Source of the DNA: Actinomyces sp. oral taxon 170 str. F0386
GTDB taxonomy: Bacteria > Actinomycetota > Actinomycetes > Actinomycetales > Actinomycetaceae
Length of the DNA: 64,000 nucleotides
Direction of reading: 5' to 3'
NCBI RefSeq assembly: GCF_000195595.1
Contig: NZ_GL882511.1
Location: 124,001-188,000 of the forward strand
The position numbers were made by a program, and so were the translations under genes. The notes beneath the pieces are model-generated. The model ran no database searches, was not told the origin of the DNA, and saw nothing but the letters and a program-made list of their open reading frames with translations. Position 1 is the stretch's first letter; each line of letters begins with the position of its first letter. This document shows, one piece after another, positions 4,843 through 51,575 of the stretch.

Positions 4843-6447
4843 ATGCCGACTCTTCCCGCATCGCTGCCCGTCCTGACCGTCATGGCGATCGTGCCACTGG
4901 CCGGGGCGCTCCTGCTGTGGCTGGTCCCGCCGCTGCGCCGGCTCCACGCCCGCGCCGTGGGCCTCGTGTTCTCCCTGGCCGTTCTCGCCCTGGGCCTGTG
5001 GGCGCTGAGCGCCTTCGACCTCGGCCACGCCGGCACCATCCAGCTCGCCCACACCCAGCCCTGGATCCCCGCCATCGGCGCCTCCTGGGCCCTGGGCGTC
5101 AACGGGCTGGGGCTGGCCATGGTGCTGCTGGCCGCCTTCGTCACGCCTCTGGTGCTGCTCGCCTCCTGGGGCGAGGTCCCCGCCGACCGCCAGGGCCTGT
5201 TCACCGGGCTCGTCCTGGCTCTGGAGTTCTTCGTCGTCGTCATCTTCTCGGCCCGCGACCTGCTGCTGTTCTACCTGTGCTTCGAGGCGATGCTCATCCC
5301 GGTGTACTTCCTCATCGGATGCTTCGGCGGGCAGAATCGCCAGCGTGCCGCCCTGAAGTTCCTCCTGTACTCCCTGGCCGGCGGGCTCGTCATGCTCATC
5401 GGCGTCATCGCGGTCTCCCTGCACTCCGCCAAGGACGGCAGCCCCAGCTTCCTCATCGACTCGGTGGCCGCCAACCTGCACGTGTCCACCGGTGCCGGGC
5501 ACTGGATCTTCCTGACCTTCTTCATTGCCTTCGCCATCAAGGCGCCCCTGGTGCCGGTCCACACCTGGCTGCCCGACACCGCGGAGCAGGCCACGCCGGG
5601 CACCTCGGTGCTGCTCATCGGCATCCTGGACAAGATCGGCACCTTCGGCATGATCACCCTGGTCCTGCCGATCTTCCCGGAGGCCTCGCGCTGGGCCGCC
5701 CCGGTGGTCCTGGTCCTGGCGGTCGTCTCCATCATCTACGGGGGCCTGGCCGCCATCGCCCAGGACAACCTCTACCGCCTCATCTCCTACACCTCCGTGA
5801 GCCACTTCGGCTTCATGGTCCTGGGGATCTTCATCGGCAACCAGGTGGCCGCCAACGGTGCCATGGTCTACATGGTGGCCCACGGCCTGTCCATCGCCGG
5901 CCTCTACCTGGTCACCGGCTTCATGGCCCGGCGCACCGGAACGGTTGCCATCAGCGAGCTCGGTGGCATCGCCCGGGTCATGCCGCTGGTGGCCGGCACG
6001 TTCCTGGTCTGCGGCCTGGCCTCCATCGCCCTGCCGGGCCTGAGCGGATTCGTGCCCGAGTGGATGGTGCTCACCGGCACTTTCTCGGTCTCGCTGGCCC
6101 TGGGCGGCGCGGCCGTCGTCGGGGTGATCATCGCCGCCGTCTACATGCTGCTGCCCTACCAGCGGGTCTTCACCGGTGCACCTGCGCCCGAGCGCGTGGG
6201 CAGCCCCGACCTCGACGGGCGCGAGCGGCTCGTCGTCGTCCCCATCATCGCCGCGATGCTCGCGCTCGGCCTGGCCCCGGCCACGCTCACCCACGCGCTC
6301 GACGACGTCGCCCGGCAGGTCACGCTCATGGCGAGCCGGACTCCGGGGGCCGTCGCCTCCGCCGTCGTCCCCGGTGACAGCTCCGATGCCGACGGCGCGA
6401 CCGATGCGCCCGCCGCCTCCACCGCTACGGAAGGGAACGCCAAGTGA
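4843..6447 (+). CDS. nuoM: NADH-quinone oxidoreductase subunit M (NuoM)
   Basis: NuoM is the second antiporter-like proton-translocating subunit of complex I. The protein is 534 residues with about 14 predicted helices. The conserved glutamate in CFEAMLIPVYFLIG (E148) and the lysine in FAIKAPLVPVHTWLPDTA (K233) are present. The last 50 residues are a Ser/Ala/Asp-rich hydrophilic tail, again longer than in E. coli. The ATG lies 13 bases after the nuoL stop, with GAGAGGA upstream. The stop overlaps the GTG start of nuoN. Confidence 0.97.
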   Translation: MPTLPASLPVLTVMAIVPLAGALLLWLVPPLRRLHARAVGLVFSLAVLALGLWALSAFDLGHAGTIQLAHTQPWIPAIGASWALGVNGLGLAMVLLAAFVTPLVLLASWGEVPADRQGLFTGLVLALEFFVVVIFSARDLLLFYLCFEAMLIPVYFLIGCFGGQNRQRAALKFLLYSLAGGLVMLIGVIAVSLHSAKDGSPSFLIDSVAANLHVSTGAGHWIFLTFFIAFAIKAPLVPVHTWLPDTAEQATPGTSVLLIGILDKIGTFGMITLVLPIFPEASRWAAPVVLVLAVVSIIYGGLAAIAQDNLYRLISYTSVSHFGFMVLGIFIGNQVAANGAMVYMVAHGLSIAGLYLVTGFMARRTGTVAISELGGIARVMPLVAGTFLVCGLASIALPGLSGFVPEWMVLTGTFSVSLALGGAAVVGVIIAAVYMLLPYQRVFTGAPAPERVGSPDLDGRERLVVVPIIAAMLALGLAPATLTHALDDVARQVTLMASRTPGAVASAVVPGDSSDADGATDAPAASTATEGNAK

Positions 6448-8051
6448 GCCCCTCAGCCACTGACCCGATCGTCAACTGGGACGCCCTGACGCCGGTACTC
6501 ATCATCCTGGGCGCCGGTGTCCTGGGTGTCCTCGTGGAGGCCTTCATCGCCCGCCCCGCACGCCTGGCCGTGCAGGCCACGCTGAGCCTCTTGGCCATCC
6601 TGGCCTCCGGGGTCTCCCTCTTCCTGCGCTGGGGCGAGGTCAAGGCCGCCGGGGCCGCCGTCGAGGCGACCTACCAGGGAGCCCAGGACTTCCTACCGGG
6701 CGCCCGCATGTCCGCGGGCCTGACTGAGGACCCCTTCTCCATCGCCGCCCAGGGCGTCCTCCTGCTCATCGGCCTGCTGGCCGTCCTGGTCATGGCCGAC
6801 CGCACCGCCGTCGGCGACGGCGCCTTCGCGGCCCAGGCCGCCGACCGTCCCGGTAGCGCGGAGGAGAGCGAGTCCCTCCTGGCCGGGTGGACCACCACCG
6901 AGATCTTCCCTCTGACCCTGTTCTCCCTGGGCGGCATGATGCTGTTCGGGGCCAGCAGCGACCTCATCACGCTGTTCGTCATCCTGGAGATGATCTCCCT
7001 GCCGCTGTACGTCCTGGCGGCCACCGCTCGTCACCGCCGGCTGCTCAGCCAGGAGGCGGCGCTGAAGTACTTCGTACTGGGGGCCTTCGCCTCAGCCTTC
7101 CTGCTCATGGGGTCGGCCCTGCTCTACGGGGTGGCCGGCGCCGTGGACTACAAGGCCCTCGGCGAGGCCGTGCGCACCGTGCAGGGGCAGGACCGGCTCA
7201 TCCTGACCGGTGTCATGCTCGTCATCGTCGGCCTGCTGTTCAAGGTGGCGGCCGTGCCCTTCCACGCATGGAGCCCGGACGTCTACCAGGGCGCCCCCAC
7301 CCCGGTCACCGGCTTCATGGCCGCTGGGGTCAAGGCCGCCGCCTTCCTGGCCCTCGTGCGCTTCTACTACGTCATCGCCGGTGCCATGGGCTGGGACCTG
7401 GCCCCCGCCCTGTGGGCTGTGGTGGCGCTGACCATGCTCGTGGGCACCGTCGTCGGCGTGGTCCAGCGTGACGTCAAGCGCATGCTCGCCTACTCCGCCA
7501 TCGCCCACGCCGGCTTCATGCTCATCGGGATCCTCGCCTACTCCAAGGCAGCGATCTCCGCGCTCAGCTTCTACGCCCTGACCTACGGGATCGCCACCGT
7601 GGGCGCCTTCGGCATCATCACCCTGGTGCGCTCCAACCGCGGCGGCTCCGTGGGCGGTGAGGACGGCGACCTGGAGGCCTTCAAGGGCCTGGGACGCCGC
7701 AGTCCCTGGGCGGCCGGCGCCATGACCGTTTTCCTGCTGTCCTTCGCGGGCGTGCCTCTCACGGCCGGCTTCATGGCCAAGTTCCGGCTCTTCGCCACCG
7801 GGTTGAGCGGCAACGGGGTGCCCTTCGTCATCCTTGCCGTCGTCTGCTCGGCCGTGACCGCCTTCTTCTACATGCGGCTCATCGTCCTCATGTTCTTCCA
7901 CGAGCCCGACGGCGAGCGCTCTGTGGTCGTGGCCAGTAACGGCCCGATCATCCTGGCGGTCAGTGTTGCGGTGATGGCCACAATCGGCTTGGGGATTCTG
8001 CCGCAGGCCGCCTTCGACCTGTTCGACCGGACGGCTATGCTCCTTCCGTGA
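6444..8051 (+). CDS. nuoN: NADH-quinone oxidoreductase subunit N (NuoN)
   Basis: NuoN is the third antiporter-like subunit of complex I and ends the nuo gene set. The protein is 535 residues. The family glutamate in VILEMISLPLYVLAA (E182) and the lysine in LLFKVAAVPFHAWSPDVYQGAPTPV (K267) are visible. The GTG start overlaps the nuoM stop. The stop overlaps the GTG start of the polyprenyl diphosphate synthase gene by 4 bp, so that enzyme should be made together with complex I. Confidence 0.97.
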   Translation: MSPSATDPIVNWDALTPVLIILGAGVLGVLVEAFIARPARLAVQATLSLLAILASGVSLFLRWGEVKAAGAAVEATYQGAQDFLPGARMSAGLTEDPFSIAAQGVLLLIGLLAVLVMADRTAVGDGAFAAQAADRPGSAEESESLLAGWTTTEIFPLTLFSLGGMMLFGASSDLITLFVILEMISLPLYVLAATARHRRLLSQEAALKYFVLGAFASAFLLMGSALLYGVAGAVDYKALGEAVRTVQGQDRLILTGVMLVIVGLLFKVAAVPFHAWSPDVYQGAPTPVTGFMAAGVKAAAFLALVRFYYVIAGAMGWDLAPALWAVVALTMLVGTVVGVVQRDVKRMLAYSAIAHAGFMLIGILAYSKAAISALSFYALTYGIATVGAFGIITLVRSNRGGSVGGEDGDLEAFKGLGRRSPWAAGAMTVFLLSFAGVPLTAGFMAKFRLFATGLSGNGVPFVILAVVCSAVTAFFYMRLIVLMFFHEPDGERSVVVASNGPIILAVSVAVMATIGLGILPQAAFDLFDRTAMLLP

Positions 8052-9154
8052 TCGGATCTCTGCCGCTGAGCGCGCCCCAGCTGGAGGCGCGCATCGTCCC
8101 CGCCCTCCAGGCCATCGAGGACCGCCTCATGGAGGTGGTCACCAGCGCTGACGAGACCATCAACCCGCCGACCTCGCACCTGGCCGAGGCCGGGGGCAAG
8201 CGCCTGCGGCCGGTCCTGGCCCTGCTGACCGCCCAGCTCGGTGACCCGGCCCTGGCCGCCGGCGAGCAGATCCGCGATGCGGGCGTGGCCGTGGAGCTGA
8301 CACACATCGCCACGCTCTACCACGACGATGTCATGGACGAGGCTCCGCTGCGCCGCGGTGCCCCCAGCGCCCAGACCGTGTGGGGCAACTCCGCCGCCAT
8401 CCTCACCGGTGACGTCCTCGTTGCCCGCGCCTCCCAGCTCGTGGCGGCGCTCGGCCCGGAGGCCGTCATGGCCCACGCCAAGACCTTCGAGCGCCTGTGC
8501 ATGGGCCAGCTCCATGAGACCCTGCCGCGTCCGTCCGGCACCGACCCGGTGGATCACTACATCCAGGTCCTGGCGGACAAGACCGGCTCCCTCATCGCGG
8601 TGTCCGCCCGCTACGGGGCGATGCTCACCGGTGCCGGGGTGCGCACCGAGCGGATCGTGGAGGAGTTCGGTGAGAAGATCGGCGTGGCCTTCCAGCTGGC
8701 CGACGACGTCATCGACCTCATGAGCGACTCGGCCACCACCGGCAAGACTCCCGGCACCGACCTGCGCGAGGGCGTGGACACCATGCCGGTGCTGCTCCTG
8801 CGCAAGGCCCTGGCGGCCGGTGAGCTCGACGCCGCCGGCCAGGCGATCCTCTCGCGCCTGTCCACGGGCGACCTGTCCGATGACGCCTTCCTGGCCGACG
8901 TCGTCGCCCGTCTGCGTGAGCATCCCGTCCTGGCCCGCACTCGCGAGATGGCCATGGCCTGGGCCGCCGAGGCCGTCCAGGGCCTGGAGGGCCTGGAGGA
9001 GGCTGTTCTTGACGGGACCCGGCAGCGCCTGACCGAGGCCGGGATCGAGGATGAGGCCGCTGCGGCGGCACTGGCCGACGCCGGTGAACGGGTGGCGCAG
9101 GTGCGTGCGGCCATGGAGGACTTCGCCCGCATCCTCGTGGACCGGGCTGCCTGA
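8048..9154 (+). CDS. Long-chain polyprenyl diphosphate synthase (menaquinone side chain)
   Basis: This is a trans-isoprenyl diphosphate synthase that condenses isopentenyl diphosphate with allylic primers. The protein is 368 residues. The first aspartate-rich motif is DDVMD (residues 93-97), preceded by the GGKRLRP substrate-binding loop. The second is DDVID (219-223), in FQLADDVIDLMSD. Translational coupling to nuoN makes it likely that it builds the heptaprenyl-to-nonaprenyl tail of menaquinone, the electron acceptor of the preceding complex I. Chain length cannot be read reliably from the sequence. About 40 extra residues at the C-terminus are Ala/Glu-rich. No partner small subunit is encoded nearby. 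Confidence 0.9.
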   Translation: MIGSLPLSAPQLEARIVPALQAIEDRLMEVVTSADETINPPTSHLAEAGGKRLRPVLALLTAQLGDPALAAGEQIRDAGVAVELTHIATLYHDDVMDEAPLRRGAPSAQTVWGNSAAILTGDVLVARASQLVAALGPEAVMAHAKTFERLCMGQLHETLPRPSGTDPVDHYIQVLADKTGSLIAVSARYGAMLTGAGVRTERIVEEFGEKIGVAFQLADDVIDLMSDSATTGKTPGTDLREGVDTMPVLLLRKALAAGELDAAGQAILSRLSTGDLSDDAFLADVVARLREHPVLARTREMAMAWAAEAVQGLEGLEEAVLDGTRQRLTEAGIEDEAAAAALADAGERVAQVRAAMEDFARILVDRAA

Positions 9155-9315: not shown

Positions 9316-10917
9316 ATGCCGTCCTCTACACCGCTGTCGCCTGATGCCTGTGCCCGAATGACCCGACGCGGTGTCCTGACCCTGCCCGCCCTGGCCGGTG
9401 CAGGAGTTGTTCTGGCAGGCTGCGGGGTGCTCAAAAAGGGCGGCTCCGCCTCGGGGAAGGGCTCGGGGACTGCGTCCCCGCGAGCTGCCGTCGCAACCGC
9501 GACTGGTCCCCATGGCGGAGTGATGCTGGAGGCGGGATGGAAAGGAGTGCCCCTCTCGGTGGAGGTGGGGCCTGCCGTCATCAAAGACAAGTACACGATC
9601 ATACGCCTGGGCATTGTGGTGAGTTCAAAGGCCAAGAAGGTGCCGACAGATTTGACTGTCAATCAGACGTTCGAAACCAAAGATGCCTGGTCTTCGATGC
9701 GAGGTCTGAAGATGCTGTCGATGGAGAAAGGGTCGGTGTTCCCGGAGCTGAGCACCAGGACGGATGGGCTTACGGACTCCCTGACGAAGGACAAGCCTGT
9801 GGAGTTGTTTCCGGTCTTCAAAGCCCCCAGTGACGGAGTGAAGACGGTTGAACTGTTTATGCCGCAGATGACAGTGGCGATCGGGCTTCCGGTGGTGGAA
9901 GCAAGTGCTGTCGATTACTCGGTTGATGATGTCCTCGCCAAGGCGGAGCTCGATGAGGCGGATCCCGGCCCCTTTGCAATGAATAGTATTATTCTTTCTG
10001 CCGACGGTTCGTCGGATACGAAAAAGAATGAGAAGTCGACAACGGTGACGGTGGATGGGGATGTGACCTTCGAGGTTGACTCCGATCAGCTCTCTGCCCA
10101 GGCTGATGCCGTACTGGCCAATGTGGTGGAGCAGATCAAGAAGTACCCCTCTGGAGGGGATCTGACGATCACGGGTCACACCGACGACGTGGCTGATGAT
10201 GCACACAATCAGGATCTGTCAGAGCGGCGTGCCAAGGCGGTGTCGAGTCGGCTCAAGAAGCTGACGGACCTGTCCACGTGGAATGAGTCGGTCTCAGGCA
10301 AGGGGGAGTCCTCGCCGCGGGTACCGAATGACTCCGATGAACACAGGCAGGCCAACCGCCGCGTGGAGATCACGCTGACGCCCTCGAAGCCCGCCGAGGC
10401 CAGTGCGTCGCCGAGCGCGAGTGCAGTGCCGTCATCAGCGACCGTGCCTGACCCGGCAGGCCCTGTGGGCAAGGGGCCCGAGGGGGTCGATGTGAAAGTC
10501 GGTGGTAAGGCCGTGCACATGTCGATTGATGGCGTCTTCCGTGTAGGAGGGTATCTCGCGGGAACTCTCATGCTGACAGCATCGGAGAAAGTCTACGTTG
10601 ACGTCTGGGAGTTCTTGATGCCGCCGGAGATTGAGGGACCTCATTCCTGGGCTGGTTGGATGATGGGTGTCTATAACCTCACGCTTCTGAGTGCTGGTCA
10701 GCGATACCTGGGGGTTGACTATTCCTATAGTAATGGGGCCTGGGTGATGCTTTCCAATGATTTCGTGTTTGAGATCCAGCCCGGTGAAGCAACACGTTTT
10801 CCAGTTGTGTGGCCAGATACGGGGGAGGACTCCGTTACATTGGATTTGCCTGGAGGTGGAGGCATTTGGGAACGTGTCGCTGCTCGCCTGACCGATATTC
10901 CTGTTGTCAATGTCTGA
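9316..10917 (+). CDS. OmpA-domain lipoprotein, copy 1
   Basis: Predicted exported lipoprotein of 533 residues. The N-terminus has a twin-arginine-like stretch (TRRGVLTL), a hydrophobic segment and a lipobox VLAGC with C36 as the lipidated residue. A Gly/Ser/Lys linker follows. Residues about 245-355 form an OmpA-like peptidoglycan-associated domain (TITGHTDDVADDAHNQDLSERRAKAV and ANRRVEITL). The region before it and the C-terminal 150 residues match no family I recognise. I chose the ATG at 9316 because GAAAGG lies 8 bases upstream; in-frame ATGs at 9286 and 9295 lack this. It is followed with an 8-bp overlap by a paralogue. Base composition is less GC-rich than in neighbouring genes. Confidence 0.85.
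   Translation: MPSSTPLSPDACARMTRRGVLTLPALAGAGVVLAGCGVLKKGGSASGKGSGTASPRAAVATATGPHGGVMLEAGWKGVPLSVEVGPAVIKDKYTIIRLGIVVSSKAKKVPTDLTVNQTFETKDAWSSMRGLKMLSMEKGSVFPELSTRTDGLTDSLTKDKPVELFPVFKAPSDGVKTVELFMPQMTVAIGLPVVEASAVDYSVDDVLAKAELDEADPGPFAMNSIILSADGSSDTKKNEKSTTVTVDGDVTFEVDSDQLSAQADAVLANVVEQIKKYPSGGDLTITGHTDDVADDAHNQDLSERRAKAVSSRLKKLTDLSTWNESVSGKGESSPRVPNDSDEHRQANRRVEITLTPSKPAEASASPSASAVPSSATVPDPAGPVGKGPEGVDVKVGGKAVHMSIDGVFRVGGYLAGTLMLTASEKVYVDVWEFLMPPEIEGPHSWAGWMMGVYNLTLLSAGQRYLGVDYSYSNGAWVMLSNDFVFEIQPGEATRFPVVWPDTGEDSVTLDLPGGGGIWERVAARLTDIPVVNV
9418..9467 (+). repeat. Near-identical 50-bp segment shared with 11015-11064
   Basis: The stretch encoding the lipobox cysteine and the Gly/Ser/Lys linker differs at only two positions from 11015-11064 in the second lipoprotein gene, although the flanking DNA has diverged strongly. 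This suggests recent gene conversion or strong constraint on this part of the duplicated pair. Confidence 0.75.
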
Positions 10918-12508
10918 GGAGTCTGTGGGTGTGAGTGTGGTGAGTCCTGTGGTGATGTCTCGTCGTGCAGTCCTGTCGGTGGCTGCGGTTGCCAGTGCTG
11001 GCGTGGTTCTGGGTGGCTGCGGGGTCCTCAAGAAGGGCGGCTCCGCCTCGGGGAAGGGCTCGGGCTCCGCCGCCTCTGCTCATGCGGCGGTGGCGGCTTC
11101 GACTGGGCCTCATGGTGGTGTGGTGCTGGAGGCGGGAATCGAGGGTAAGCCGGTTTCGGTGGAGGTGGGGCCGGCTGTGGTAGTTGGTGAGCGCACGGTG
11201 GTCAGGCTGGTGGTGTCCACCAGCCAGGCTGAAGGACACATCATGGTCTCTAGCATGTTCGGGACGACGCGTGCGCCGATCACGCTGCTTGATGTGCAGA
11301 TGCTTTCGTTGGATAAGGGGCTGGTGTTCCCTGAGCTCAGTCTTAGCCATGAGGGGCTCTATCAGGATGTGACAAAGGATGATCCGGTGGAGCTGTTCCC
11401 GGTGTTCGCTGCCGTGGGTGGCGGCGTTAAAACTGTGGAGGTTCTTCTGCCGCATATGGGAGTGGTTGTTGGGGTGCCGGTCGCGGAGGAATCTAAGGCT
11501 GGGTACTCCGCTGCCGACGTGCTGGCCAAGGCGGAGCTCACGACGAGTGATCCGGGTCCCTGTAGGCTGCAGAGTCATACGGTGGCTGCTGATGGCTCGT
11601 CGGATGTGAAGCGCGATGAGGCGTCGACGACGGTGACGGTGGCTGGGGATGTGACTTTTGCGGTGGACTCTGATCAGCTCTCGGCTCAGGCTGACAGTGT
11701 GCTGGCTGGTGTGGTGGAGCAGATCAAGAAGTACCCTTCCGGAGGGGAGTTGACGATCACGGGTCACACTGATGATGTGGCCGATGATGCTCATAACCAG
11801 GATCTGTCGGAGCGGCGGGCCAAGGCGGTGTCGGGCCGGTTGAAGACGTTGACGGATCTGTCGGCGTGGAAGGAGGCGGTGTCGGGTAAGGGGGAGTCGT
11901 CTCCTCGGGTGCCCAATGACTCTGAGGAGAACAAGCAGGCCAACCGCCGCGTGGAGGTCACTTTGAAGCCGTCGAAGCCTCAGGAGGGTGATTCTGCTCA
12001 GGGCGCGAGCGCGGCTTCGTCGTCGACCGCGGTGCCGGAGGCTACCGGCCCGGTGGGCAAGGGGCCTGAGGGCGTGGACGTGAACGTGGACGGTAAGACC
12101 CTGCACATGTCGATTGACCGCGTGGTTCGGATCGGGAAGTACCTGACCGGCTCCGTGGAGCTGAGCTCCGACCAGGATGTATCGATTTCAGGGGCGTCCT
12201 TCGCGCTGCCGGAGACGATGCAGAAGGTGCACGGGGGCTGGGTGATCGGTGGTGTGTACAGCTTGACCCTCCTAAGTGGGAGTACTCGCTACATGGAGAC
12301 TGACTGTGAACCTCCGGCCGGGGACCGGCTACCTATAGCCATGACCAGTTTCGGTTCCTCAGTGAAGCCTGGCGTGCCGGTGCGCCTTCCGGTCGTCTGG
12401 CCGGATCCCGGTGGGGACTCGGTCACCATTGACCTGCCGGAAGGCGAAGCGCGACTCAGCGGCCGTATTGTCGCCCGCCTCACCGACATCCCGGTCACCA
12501 ACGCCTAG
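10910..12508 (+). CDS. OmpA-domain lipoprotein, copy 2 (tandem paralogue)
   Basis: Predicted lipoprotein of 532 residues, a tandem duplicate of the preceding gene with the same architecture. It has a twin-arginine-like start (SRRAVLSV), lipobox VLGGC with C37, the same KKGGSASGKGSGS linker, an OmpA-like domain at about residues 247-353, and the same C-terminal domain ending in VARLTDIPVTNA. The central region before the OmpA domain has diverged most. The ATG at 10910 overlaps the first gene's stop; an in-frame ATG at 10955, just before the twin-arginine motif, is an alternative start. Third-position T is unusually common here compared with the rest of the window. Both copies probably act outside the membrane on or near the wall; the ligand is unknown. 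Confidence 0.83.
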   Translation: MSEESVGVSVVSPVVMSRRAVLSVAAVASAGVVLGGCGVLKKGGSASGKGSGSAASAHAAVAASTGPHGGVVLEAGIEGKPVSVEVGPAVVVGERTVVRLVVSTSQAEGHIMVSSMFGTTRAPITLLDVQMLSLDKGLVFPELSLSHEGLYQDVTKDDPVELFPVFAAVGGGVKTVEVLLPHMGVVVGVPVAEESKAGYSAADVLAKAELTTSDPGPCRLQSHTVAADGSSDVKRDEASTTVTVAGDVTFAVDSDQLSAQADSVLAGVVEQIKKYPSGGELTITGHTDDVADDAHNQDLSERRAKAVSGRLKTLTDLSAWKEAVSGKGESSPRVPNDSEENKQANRRVEVTLKPSKPQEGDSAQGASAASSSTAVPEATGPVGKGPEGVDVNVDGKTLHMSIDRVVRIGKYLTGSVELSSDQDVSISGASFALPETMQKVHGGWVIGGVYSLTLLSGSTRYMETDCEPPAGDRLPIAMTSFGSSVKPGVPVRLPVVWPDPGGDSVTIDLPEGEARLSGRIVARLTDIPVTNA

Positions 12509-48385: not shown

Positions 48386-48514
48386 CTAATCGCCGTCAAA
48401 TCGTCGCTCCTACCGATAGTCACAACGACAGGCCGGATGAATGATCCCTTAAGGCCTATTCACGGGGTTTGACGCGATGCTTGGCGCGAGGGGCGCTGGA
48501 TCCGCGGTGACAGG

Positions 48515-48531
48515 TGTCCATGCTGCGGACA
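48515..48531. promoter_or_regulatory. TGTCC-dyad, degenerate copy c
   Basis: TGTCCATGCTGCGGACA retains the outer TGTCC/GGACA arms with a degenerate centre. No GAAT hexamer at the 42-nt position. Confidence 0.45.
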
Positions 48532-48617
48532 TGAAGGTTACAAGGACGTTGGAAGCCGAGTGAGAACCGCGGAATTTCAAGGATGCTCGTCGATCGCGTC
48601 GGCTGCGGGCTCAGCTA

Positions 48618-48634
48618 TGTCCGCTGCGTGGACA
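48618..48634. promoter_or_regulatory. TGTCCGC-TGC-GTGGACA palindrome, copy d
   Basis: Same framework as copies a and b, with one mismatched pair. CGGAAT lies 42 nt upstream. It is the copy nearest to the membrane gene at 48795. Confidence 0.55.
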
Positions 48635-48794
48635 CCGGTTCGCTCGTGTTTCACAGGAGGATGGTGGAACCGACTGCGAATCCCGCGAATAAAATCCTTC
48701 AATAGTTGAATCGACGAGCGAGTTCCACTGAGGGCTCTCAGGGTGTTTCTATTTCAAGGTTGATTGGACTTTGTGCTGGTGATACAAATGACGC

Positions 48795-50297
48795 ATGATG
48801 GATCACGATGTGTCGCCTAGTACGCAGAGCGCTCCGTTTCGCTCGCTCAAGTCTTCTCGCAGGCCCGGATTTATTGGAAGTTTGTTGTTTGGTCTCATTG
48901 CTACGTCATGGTGGTGTGCCGTTGCTGTTCTGGTGCATTTGTTGATACGGCCACGCCTTCGTGCCTCTTTTGAGGATAATCCACTCAGTGTTTTCGGGTT
49001 GTATTTTAACTTATTCAAAGACCTTACTGTGGAAGAATCCAATGCCGGTTCGTCTGCATTGTTTAGTCTCTTGGCTGCGGTGGTTGGGTTGGCGATAGTG
49101 TTACGTGGAATGGTGTGGGAGGTGCAAGATCTTCCTGAAGACTCGCACGTGTATCGAGCTTGGTTGCAACGAACGATGGATGCTTCCGTAAGGGAAGACA
49201 CAGCCATTTTTCTCACGGCAATGCTCTGTGGTCTGTATGGGTTTATAGTGGTTTGCTACGGATTTCTAGCTGGAGGTAGAGGCTGGAGGGGATTCAGTCT
49301 TGTGGTCTTCCTGGTTCTGGTTGTCTTGAGTTTAATTGTTTCAATCTTACCCGCCTTTGTTATAAGAAGTAGCGCAGGAGTGGTTAGTAGCTATGCGTAT
49401 AGTCTTATTCGTTTAGCGAATCTAGCAGAATATAGATGTCATAATGAAAGTGGTGACGCCCATCCTTTTAAGGTCGGAAAGGACGGAGAATTACCTCGGA
49501 TTAAAAAGGTAGTGAGCGCTTTAGTGTGTAAAAATGGTAAGGGGCGGTGGGCGTTATTGGGAAAAAATGCAGGTGTGTGTCTTGCGGTGCTTGCATCATT
49601 TGTAGTAATTGTGGCGAGGTTTGGTTCCGCAAATATTGGCGGTGTCGTTGTGTTGGCTGCCTATATGGTGTTTGTGGCTCTACTTTTTGAGTTGTTGATT
49701 CCGTTAGCTCTCTATGCGAATTCTAATAGCATCGCGGTGGGTGGGTCGAATTTTGGGCGCGGTGCACTATTTGTATTTGCTTCCATGCTTTCCCTTCTAG
49801 GGTGGGCGATGTATGTAATGTTATTCATCGGAGCAGTATCGTCTTGCTGGGGGATTGTAGTAATTTGCCTGCCTGTCTGGTGGTTTATTCGGTTTCTTCT
49901 AGCTCTATTTGTGAAACTTTCTGCAGGAAATGGCGATTCAAATGACGGTGGTAAACCAAAAGGAAATGACGATTCAAACAACGATGGTCAACCGAAGAAA
50001 GCCAATGCGTTTCAGAGAATTTGTGCTTTTTTGAGGGATGAGGTTGGCTTACGTGATGCGATGTTGGTCTGTATTGATCAGTGCATGCTTGAAAGTGGGG
50101 GTTTGGTGAATTCCTGTGTCGATCGAAACGTGCAGGTCGCCACTGAATTGAATGCTGTATTCGATCAAGTTGTGCCTGAGGGGTGTGTCGTAAGTCGCGG
50201 TGATGGCGGGGAGGTGGATTTAAGGAATTATCTGTCTGAGACGGTGAAGGTGACCGCGCCTCCGGTGCCGGAGACTGGCTCTGGTGCCGGCAAGTAG
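48795..50297 (+). CDS. Orphan multi-pass membrane protein, unlike its neighbours in composition
   Basis: Protein of 500 residues that I do not recognise. About eight hydrophobic segments occupy residues 28-375 in pairs: 28-50, 85-105, 138-160, 168-190, 260-280, 285-310, 318-340 and 345-370. A hydrophilic linker at about residues 377-402 contains two copies of a 12-residue repeat, followed by a soluble C-terminal domain of about 95 residues with four cysteines. The DNA is visibly AT-richer and uses AT-ending codons throughout, unlike every neighbour, so recent transfer is likely. Tandem ATGs at 48795 and 48798 are the start candidates; no clear ribosome binding site precedes them. It breaks up the glycan cluster. 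Confidence 0.8.
   Translation: MMDHDVSPSTQSAPFRSLKSSRRPGFIGSLLFGLIATSWWCAVAVLVHLLIRPRLRASFEDNPLSVFGLYFNLFKDLTVEESNAGSSALFSLLAAVVGLAIVLRGMVWEVQDLPEDSHVYRAWLQRTMDASVREDTAIFLTAMLCGLYGFIVVCYGFLAGGRGWRGFSLVVFLVLVVLSLIVSILPAFVIRSSAGVVSSYAYSLIRLANLAEYRCHNESGDAHPFKVGKDGELPRIKKVVSALVCKNGKGRWALLGKNAGVCLAVLASFVVIVARFGSANIGGVVVLAAYMVFVALLFELLIPLALYANSNSIAVGGSNFGRGALFVFASMLSLLGWAMYVMLFIGAVSSCWGIVVICLPVWWFIRFLLALFVKLSAGNGDSNDGGKPKGNDDSNNDGQPKKANAFQRICAFLRDEVGLRDAMLVCIDQCMLESGGLVNSCVDRNVQVATELNAVFDQVVPEGCVVSRGDGGEVDLRNYLSETVKVTAPPVPETGSGAGK
49926..49997 (+). repeat. Tandem 36-bp direct repeat (two units) inside the orphan gene
   Basis: Units 49926-49961 and 49962-49997 are alike at most positions and encode GNGDSNDGGKPK and GNDDSNNDGQPK, a flexible linker between the membrane part and the C-terminal domain. 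Confidence 0.8.
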
Positions 50298-50304
50298 GAG
50301 GAGT

Positions 50305-50409
50305 GAGAACGTACTTTTCTCGCGAGGACTGCGCTTTGTCGTTGACGACTGATGTCAGACCGCAGTCGTCGATGATGAAAGTACGTCCCCACAGCAAATC
50401 GCCGTTCTC
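50305..50409. other. Nested inverted repeats between convergent genes
   Basis: ACGTACTTT (50309-50317) pairs with AAAGTACGT (50378-50386). GACGACTG (50344-50351) pairs with CAGTCGTC (50363-50370) inside it, and GAGAAC (50305-50310) can pair with GTTCTC (50404-50409) outside. A large cruciform or bidirectional terminator between the orphan gene and the epimerase gene is possible. The rest of the gap to 50492 shows nothing clear. Confidence 0.6.
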
Positions 50410-50492
50410 AAGATGCGCAGAAGTTCAGGCCCGGCCGCCCGGCCCCAGTGCGCTCCGGGAGAGTGCCTGCTGTGCGTCGTCGAATCCGGCCG

Positions 50493-51575
50493 TCAGCCGG
50501 GCAGGTGAGCGGTGAGTTCCTGGACGACGCGCTCGGCGGCGTGGCCGTCGCCGTAGGGGTGTGCGTCGGCCTGGGGCGGCTCGGCCGGCCGTGGTCGCGA
50601 TGCCGCCTCCACCAGCGCCTCCCCGGGCTCGACCAGCCGGTTCCACCCCAGCTCCACCGTTTCCACCCACTCGGTCTGAGGACGCACCGTGGTGCACGGC
50701 ACCCGCAGCAGGAACGCCTCCTTCTGCAGGCCGCCGGAGTCGGTGATGACGCCGCGGGCATGAAGCGCCGAGGCGATGAGGTCGGGGTAGGCCAGCGGAG
50801 GATGAATCAGCAGCGATCCCCGGCTCTCCAGGGCCAGGCCGTGCTCGGCGCACTTGGCCACCAGGCGCGGGTGGGCCAGGATGACGACGGGATGGTCCAC
50901 CCGGGCCAGGGAGTCCAGGACGCTCTTCAGGCGCTCGGCGTCGTCGGTGTTCTCGGCCCGGTGGATCGTGGCCAGGGAGTAGGAGCCCTCAGTCAGCGAG
51001 AGCTCCTCCATGACCGGGCTGGGGGAGCCCGAGACCCGGTCGCGCACCTGGAGGAGCACGTCGGTCATGACATCGCCGACGACGACGGTGCTGCTCGCCA
51101 GCCCTTCGGCGGCCAGGTGCTCGGCCCCCACCACGGTGGGCGTCAGGAGCAGGTCCGCGGCGTGGTCGGTCAGGACCCGGTTGATCTCCTCGGGCATGGC
51201 CCGGTTGAAGGAGCGCAGCCCCGCCTCCAGGTGGGCCACCGGGATGTGCAGCTTGACGGCCGCCAGGGCCGCAGCCAGCGTCGAGTTCGTGTCCCCGTAG
51301 ACCAGGACCCAGTCCGCAGACAGGGGCGGCAGGGCCTCATCGAGCGCGGCGAGCATCGCCCCGGTCTGGGCGCCGTGCCCGCCCGAGCCCACGCCCAGGT
51401 GAACATCGGGCGCCGGAATCCCCAGGTCGGTGAAGAAGACGTCGGAGAGCATCGGGTCGTAGTGCTGCCCGGTGTGGATGATGACGTGCTCCACCCCGGC
51501 AGCAGCCATGGCGTGGGCGACCGGGGCGAGCTTGACGAACTGGGGCCGGGCCCCGACGACGGAGACAACGCGCAT
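50493..51575 (-). CDS. wlbD: UDP-N-acetylglucosamine 2-epimerase family, WbpI/WlbD-like
   Basis: Non-hydrolysing UDP-sugar 2-epimerase of 360 residues. The start VVGARPQFVKLAPV, then HTGQHYDPMLSDVFFTDLGIP, VLVYGDTNSTLAAALAAVKLHIPVAHLEAGLRSFNRAMPEEINRVLTD, follows the WbpI/WlbD pattern. E. coli-type WecB instead reads GTRPEAIK and ...EAGLRTGDLYSPWPEE. WbpI converts UDP-GlcNAc3NAcA to UDP-ManNAc3NAcA, which fits the acetyltransferase, aminotransferase and dehydrogenase genes 5-8 kb away. Ordinary UDP-GlcNAc 2-epimerase activity remains possible. The ATG has TAGGAT 6 nt upstream on the minus strand. Confidence 0.87.
   Translation of the reverse strand: MRVVSVVGARPQFVKLAPVAHAMAAAGVEHVIIHTGQHYDPMLSDVFFTDLGIPAPDVHLGVGSGGHGAQTGAMLAALDEALPPLSADWVLVYGDTNSTLAAALAAVKLHIPVAHLEAGLRSFNRAMPEEINRVLTDHAADLLLTPTVVGAEHLAAEGLASSTVVVGDVMTDVLLQVRDRVSGSPSPVMEELSLTEGSYSLATIHRAENTDDAERLKSVLDSLARVDHPVVILAHPRLVAKCAEHGLALESRGSLLIHPPLAYPDLIASALHARGVITDSGGLQKEAFLLRVPCTTVRPQTEWVETVELGWNRLVEPGEALVEAASRPRPAEPPQADAHPYGDGHAAERVVQELTAHLPG

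Follow-up and report, generated by a model that had tools for sequence, protein, structure and literature searches.

Adjacent OmpA-domain lipoproteins of Actinomyces with an intact diaminopimelate-type pocket and relatives beside Tad genes: candidate membrane-to-wall anchors

According to PMC5104382, binding of diaminopimelate (DAP) by OmpA-type domains requires the motif TD(x)7NxxLSxxRA, in which Asp, Asn, and Arg are critical; in PorE, as described in PMC7192894, the DAP carboxylate is held by Arg and the amine by Asp and Asn. Two adjacent genes, P0001 and P0002, in a 64,000-nucleotide stretch of Actinomyces sp. oral taxon 170 str. F0386 (contig NZ_GL882511.1, positions 124,001 to 188,000; this whole stretch is called the window) encode putative lipoproteins with a domain that resembles OmpA C-terminal-like domains (PF00691; A. 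baumannii OmpA, 3td4/3td5, and PorE) in predicted fold, pocket residues, and Pfam score. In contrast to those proteins, P0001 and P0002 appear to be membrane lipoproteins of a single-membrane bacterium, in a genus with non-DAP walls; the OmpA domain is the central one of three, and an extra Asp follows the pocket Asp. Ordinary parts thus seem to occur in an unreported combination: a lipoprotein of the wall-anchor type, relatives that accompany Tad (Flp) pilus genes, and an unchanged DAP-type pocket, from which we infer the function proposed below. Among the entries listed by a literature search, mostly without subscription papers, none reports an OmpA-lipoprotein combined with a monoderm Tad locus.

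The closest functional parallel is CpaD of Caulobacter, which, in PMC13170226, is likewise a lipoprotein, is predicted to be OmpA-like, is encoded by tad/cpa, is required for Tad biogenesis, and has been proposed as a wall anchor. CpaD is an outer-membrane protein of 225 residues bound to the secretin CpaC, whereas the proteins considered here would sit in a single membrane and have two more domains; such a secretin would not be expected in a single-membrane host. Encoding by a tad locus is shared by many relatives but not by the window pair. In type VI secretion, the OmpA domain of TagL/TssL ties a trans-envelope machine to the wall, and the leading matches of the fold search include 5m38 and 4b62; these machines are Gram-negative and work in DAP walls. 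For monoderm bacteria, a 2019 review (PMC6916266) portrays the Tad (Tfpc) machine as a minimal one that lacks RcpB, RcpC, and TadD, and asks what holds its assembly complex together; wall anchoring of pilus machinery comes up there only as a speculation, on PilO of another pilus type.

Domain structure of the lipoprotein pair

The pair lies in a 3.1-Mb, 76-contig Actinomyces genome, and its features are as follows.

9316..10917, + strand: P0001, a 533-residue twin-arginine (Tat)-type lipoprotein with N-terminal beta, OmpA, and C-terminal beta domains (Pfam, alignment, AlphaFold2 model)
9358..9423, + strand: twin-arginine signal and lipobox (Cys36) of P0001 (44-homologue alignment)
9514..9915, + strand: N-terminal beta domain of P0001, residues about 67-200 (AlphaFold2 model)
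10042..10383, + strand: OmpA domain of P0001, residues 243-356 (PF00691; VIA match to 3td5)
10183..10230, + strand: pocket motif of P0001, Asp290, Asn298, and Arg305 (match to TD(x)7NxxLSxxRA)
10465..10914, + strand: predicted C-terminal immunoglobulin (Ig)-like domain of P0001, residues 384-533 (separate AlphaFold2 model; VIA)
10910..10917, + strand: 8-bp overlap of the P0001 and P0002 reading frames, ATGTCTGA, with the P0002 start assumed at 10910
10910..12508, + strand: P0002, a 532-residue paralogue with the domain order of P0001 (Pfam, pairwise comparison)
11018..11020, + strand: lipobox cysteine of P0002, Cys37
11630..11971, + strand: OmpA domain of P0002, about residues 241-354 (Pfam match 249-346)
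11771..11818, + strand: pocket motif of P0002, Asp288, Asn296, and Arg303
12053..12505, + strand: C-terminal domain of P0002

A sequence-only reading of the window had described two adjacent paralogues of 532-533 residues with an OmpA domain, which agrees with their lengths, their identity of 60% (310/520 columns), and their PF00691 scores of 57 (P0001) and 52.1 bits (P0002) against a cut-off of 27.2. A Pfam scan of both proteins at E<=1 gave nothing besides PF00691. Scores fell below the cut-offs for Pal (TIGR02802; 43.4 and 42.0 bits versus the NCBI cut-off of 125.35), for the YiaD family lipoproteins (NF053611; 96.5 and 97.0 versus 175), and, among the best 25 of 37 matches of P0001, for the MotB/MotS models PRK07734.1 (37.2 versus 301) and PRK06925.1 (30.5 versus 264).

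An AlphaFold2 model of P0001, built on a 44-sequence alignment (predicted local distance difference test score, pLDDT, 83.5; predicted template modelling score, pTM, 0.82), consists of a low-confidence lipoprotein linker followed by an N-terminal beta domain, the OmpA domain, and a C-terminal beta domain. It matches 3td5, the OmpA domain bound to a DAP pentapeptide, with a VIA Z of 14.8 and a root-mean-square deviation (rmsd) of 2.2 over 114 residues; the whole-model fold search also matches 3td3, a glycine-bound OmpA domain. The 50 VIA matches listed have Z values from 13.8 to 17.9 and, judged by their titles, all represent OmpA-type domains. The model thus predicts an OmpA fold for the central domain of P0001.

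Arginines 17 and 18 and Cys36 of P0001 are each conserved in at least 90% of the 44 homologues. In the wider family, a cluster of 113 genes was reduced to 95 unique full-length members by dropping those shorter than 430 residues and those sharing the last 200 residues (members known solely from loci L001-L036 fall outside this set); a loose pattern finds both a twin arginine before a hydrophobic stretch and a lipobox cysteine in 80 of the 95. Judged by these residues, P0001 and P0002 are lipoproteins with a twin-arginine signal, as had been proposed. The 8-bp overlap that had also been pointed out is present if P0002 starts at 10910; an alternative start at 10955 (MSRRAVL...) removes it. Prediction of promoters and terminators gave none above chance.

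The flanking domains are less easily placed. The N-terminal domain is modelled with pLDDT of 86-97 per 10-residue block, and neither this segment of P0001 nor its C-terminal domain, which is indeed shared by the pair, matches a Pfam family; when 44 members of each flanking domain were scanned at E<=10, the sole results were stray matches in one or two of them (best E 0.02). Folded alone, the C-terminal domain of P0001 reaches a pLDDT of 89.1. Its top VIA match is MPT63 (1lmi; Z 8.7, rmsd 3.7 over 117), followed by the YxkC part of a model of YxkC with DacA (Z 7.8, rmsd 3.6, 108 aligned), and further matches are to Gram-positive proteins or putative lipoproteins (3cfu, 7.3; 4r4g, 7.2; 3qfg, 6.4). 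On a predicted structure and on values little above the background stated by the tool (Z 7-8), the domain is tentatively read as Ig-like, of the broad MPT63 kind. It may resemble this group of exported proteins and lipoproteins (1lmi, 3cfu, 4r4g, and 3qfg, which we take to be of the DUF4352 type) in predicted fold; in contrast to them, the 44 members have no such Pfam match and the domain is fused to an OmpA domain. No literature on YxkC/DacA was found. Comparison of the N- and C-terminal domains by hhalign (52% probability, E 1.4e-4) is suggestive only of a duplicated pair.

The pocket motif and the chemistry of the wall

Both P0001 and P0002 carry TD(x)7NxxLSxxRA in full. Inspection by eye shows it in each of the seven OmpA domains detected in the host, and 91 of the 95 family members, the window pair included, have it. 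The sequence-only reading had reasoned that in an Actinomyces-like host, with a lysine/ornithine wall, the domain must bind something altered, and had proposed an alignment of the DAP-contact Asp and Arg. The host genus was correctly supposed, and the supposed wall agrees with the genus: the emended description of Actinomyces (PMC6113628) gives L-lysine or L-ornithine as the wall diamino acid. The alignment finds Asp and Arg conserved in both proteins, and the conclusion does not hold at the pocket.

In this respect the pair differs from OmpA-like proteins of spirochaetes with ornithine walls: in PMC5104382 and PMC8092773, the pocket Asp is replaced by Ala in Tp0624 of Treponema, which does not bind DAP, and by Glu in BpiP/BB_0167 of Borrelia. 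By its sequence, the pocket that was expected to be altered is unaltered. OmpA-type domains in non-DAP walls are not new in themselves, having been reported in spirochaetes, and such a domain is no oddity in this Gram-positive group: an OmpA-containing profile has matches at E<=1e-10 in 95 of the 297 genomes that sample the order (four candidates per genome were scored, and the figures come from the matches listed).

The exceptions among the 95 are L074, in which the final Ala is Val and Asp, Asn, and Arg are retained; two paralogues at L048, in which the pocket is lost; and one gene call at L085, in which the motif was not found. The pocket-less paralogues (L048:3866-5581 and L048:5629-7302) belong to a tandem array of genome G013. 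Outside the 95, L021:1498-2976 has an incomplete motif with a shortened pocket loop (GHVDSSAHEALAEQRA). The extra Asp (TDD) occurs in all 91 motif-matching members and, by eye, goes mostly with the three-domain architecture in the fetched loci (exceptions L145, L146, and L151). As a mark of a non-DAP wall it was ruled out: two other OmpA proteins of the host carry TDS. Host genes were likewise rejected as a guide to wall type. The host MurE carries DENPR, close to the DNPR motif of DAP-type MurE, and the host has DapF, which is required for lysine synthesis too; neither feature decides.

Because 3td3 holds glycine, the pocket may need just an amino-acid head group, as this analogy suggests. 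A bridge D residue, if joined via its side-chain carboxyl, would have a free end that resembles the D end of meso-DAP. Among genera of the family, wall bridges contain D-Glu or D-Asp: the Pengzhenrongella wall is L-Orn-D-Glu and some Actinomycetaceae have an A5-alpha wall with D-Glu; some Actinotalea walls are given with L-Asp instead. An extended proposal, which we regard as unlikely, would be that the pocket recognises not DAP per se but a D-amino-acid head group displayed on a side chain, that in A4/A5 Lys/Orn walls this is the bridge D-Glu or D-Asp, and that a whole class of monoderm Tad pili has such a protein as its wall anchor. Any restriction of the family to genera with such walls would be confounded by descent, and one match comes from a Dermatophilus metagenome-assembled genome for which we would expect a DAP wall.

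Relatives at Tad loci and the history of the pair

A link to Tad pili, which the sequence-only reading had not noticed, emerged from the relatives. The contig search used the best 80 of 208 relatives, which gave 76 named loci, so that genus counts are no census. At least two Tad genes were found by tblastn in 20 of the 76 (12/45 in Actinomyces, 8/31 in other genera). Clustering of the neighbours gives the order TadE-TadA-TadB-TadC-kinase-regulator-Flp-[lipoprotein]-TadG, from which some loci lack some genes, in Actinomyces, Cellulomonas, Promicromonospora, Myceligenerans, and Pengzhenrongella. In the A. timonensis cassette (L105), Pfam scores exceed the cut-off for TadE, T2SSE, two T2SSF, kinase, regulator, and OmpA, and lie below it for Flp (19.2 versus 32.2 bits) and for Tad in the TadG gene (20.2 versus 22.3). 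In the L044 cassette, RcpC/CpaB, a TadZ-like ATPase, and a TadE/G-like protein (TadG) are above cut-off, and the Flp gene has just a sub-threshold DUF4244 match.

The linkage was also approached from the side of TadA. At E<=1e-80, 61 of the 297 genomes have TadA, and OmpA domains, searched for in these 61, are present in 44. The TadA genes were divided into a high-scoring class 1 (24 genes in 23 genomes) and a class 2 (49 genes in 44 genomes), the boundary being placed after a gap in the list was seen. An OmpA-domain gene lies within 15 kb of 20/24 class-1 TadA genes, from nine families, and of 2/49 class-2 genes. The class-1 misses are G190, G009, and G068, which have no OmpA match on the TadA contig, and the second TadA of G232, whose other copy does have an OmpA-domain gene nearby. 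The linkage runs in one direction, from class-1 TadA to OmpA-domain genes. In the host, TadA and TadB lie on contig C1, and two of the seven OmpA-domain genes of the genome are on this contig, 7.5 and 9.9 kb from TadA.

Two side observations concern these neighbourhoods. On the host Tad contig, L003:530-1827 holds a split version of the family, in which a lipoprotein-like protein of 204 residues, matching the N-domain profile (E 2.3e-9), immediately precedes an OmpA-domain protein of 228 residues. A small protein of 120-157 residues, presumably DUF192-like, recurs near family genes (L045, L067, L071, L072, L075, L081, L105, L122, and L124).

The window pair lies downstream of two genes that serve as a locus marker in oral Actinomyces.

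6444..9154, + strand: genes that we take, from their sequence, to be NuoN-like and polyprenyl synthase-like

Behind the same upstream genes, other oral Actinomyces have one to three copies at the corresponding place. In the tree, P0001 shares a group (support 91) with six copies of other genomes, and the group of P0002 (support 99) holds the third copy of G006 and one from A. oris; both proteins fall inside a 23-row group (support 84) that includes Tad-locus copies such as L068. As each protein groups separately with other species, the duplication is older than these species, and a recent species-specific duplication is ruled out.

Amino-acid identity between the two is 51% in the N domain, 87% in the OmpA domain, and 49% in the C domain, so that the central regions, which had been called divergent, are not divergent overall. 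The signal/linker DNA is nearly identical, as had been observed (50/54 bases, including a 32-bp exact run). Gene conversion within the pair may be the source of this likeness, but the linkers of P0001 and its G025 orthologue are almost as alike (48/54).

The G+C content is 58.9% in P0001 and 63.1% in P0002, with 0.66 and 0.73 at third codon positions (GC3), compared with about 65-71% in the window; across oral Actinomyces this locus has 58-63% versus 68-71% in its surroundings. The host Tad contig is likewise G+C-poor (57.6% once the family gene is left out); descent of the window pair from a Tad-locus copy would fit this but is not thereby proved. Elsewhere in the window, positions 48500-50500 have 45-56% G+C; a GC3-based caller yielded no gene there, which is not proof of absence, and the region around them looks to us like polysaccharide genes.

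Possible roles of the family

The reading that we tentatively place first is that of a lipoprotein that anchors the membrane to the wall and on which one class of monoderm Tad machine would rely, with uses elsewhere too. P0001 and P0002 would be exported, probably by Tat, and lipid-anchored in the single cytoplasmic membrane; the OmpA domain, with its intact Asp/Asn/Arg pocket, would grip the wall non-covalently, and the flanking beta domains would likely bind partners. OmpA-domain proteins, whether from this family or of similar build, are a usual companion of one Tad (Flp) locus class in the order; at such loci they would most likely hold the Tad machine in place on the wall, much as has been proposed for CpaD in Caulobacter. 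The family is also found in genomes without such a TadA, where the anchor would have other uses, and the window pair, as old paralogues, might support the Tad machine from a separate locus or else form a general membrane-to-wall tether.

Several findings weigh against a Tad anchor. The window pair itself lies outside a Tad locus; at 56 of the 76 named loci, no more than one Tad gene lies within about 6 kb, and 12 of these 56 adjoin pcrA or sucCD. Twelve genomes, among the matches listed, have a near full-length member (model start <=28, end >=480): four of them have a class-1 TadA (G000, G009, G062, and G314), one a class-2 TadA (G240), and seven no TadA match at E<=1e-80 (G028, G031, G111, G180, G219, G231, and G294). 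As class-1 TadA occurs in 19/285 of the remaining genomes, among the matches listed, the family is enriched with class-1 Tad yet lives without it. The class boundary was, as noted, drawn in hindsight, and the Fisher value of 5e-12 for the class difference ignores relatedness. No OmpA-domain match was obtained in 17 of the 61 TadA genomes, none of them class-1. Where OmpA loci were retrieved from the sample of the order, some encode the three-domain form and others end soon after the OmpA domain; the linkage therefore concerns OmpA-domain proteins broadly rather than the exact architecture. Finally, the full motif is absent from L021 and from both pocket-less paralogues at L048, so that this mode of binding cannot apply to all members.

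The loci with few Tad genes, those at pcrA or sucCD among them, and the near full-length genomes without TadA also speak for a possible, if doubtful, alternative, in which the lipoprotein has no part in pili, serves as a general tether between membrane and wall or as a stabiliser of the envelope, and owes its proximity to tad to shared inheritance of the neighbourhood; that just two of the seven host OmpA-domain genes lie on the Tad contig points the same way. Such a tether would not account well for a linkage that holds across nine families for one TadA class and is nearly absent for the other, nor for the position between Flp and TadG, which recurs in five genera.

Much less probable is a scaffold for wall enzymes, with a D,D-carboxypeptidase or another such enzyme bound by the beta domains and the OmpA domain docked on the wall: it is prompted by YxkC of the YxkC-DacA model, second to MPT63 among the C-domain matches, but these matches are at or barely over the level that the tool calls common, a fold likeness reveals no partner, and no wall enzyme was recognised among the recurrent neighbour groups listed, most of which had no family-library scan. 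Variable surface antigens or adhesins, with outer domains diversifying around a fixed wall-binding core, would fit the conserved OmpA domain between divergent flanks, the tandem arrays, the matches, up to 9-11 with fragments counted, that a single genome can have, and the possibly converted linker, but are improbable as well, a membrane lipoprotein beneath a thick wall being an unlikely surface antigen.

Under the anchor reading, the finding bears on how Tad machines are held in monoderm bacteria. An OmpA-domain protein regularly found beside one monoderm Tad class is a concrete candidate for an anchor, and RcpC/CpaB was found in the single such locus scanned for it (L044). Moreover, with its DAP pocket intact in a genus whose walls are described with lysine or ornithine, the pair offers a direct test of what OmpA domains recognise. 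If the head-group proposal were true, it would answer how monoderm Tad machines hold to a thick wall, and an unchanged OmpA domain could anchor machines in A4/A5 Lys/Orn walls.

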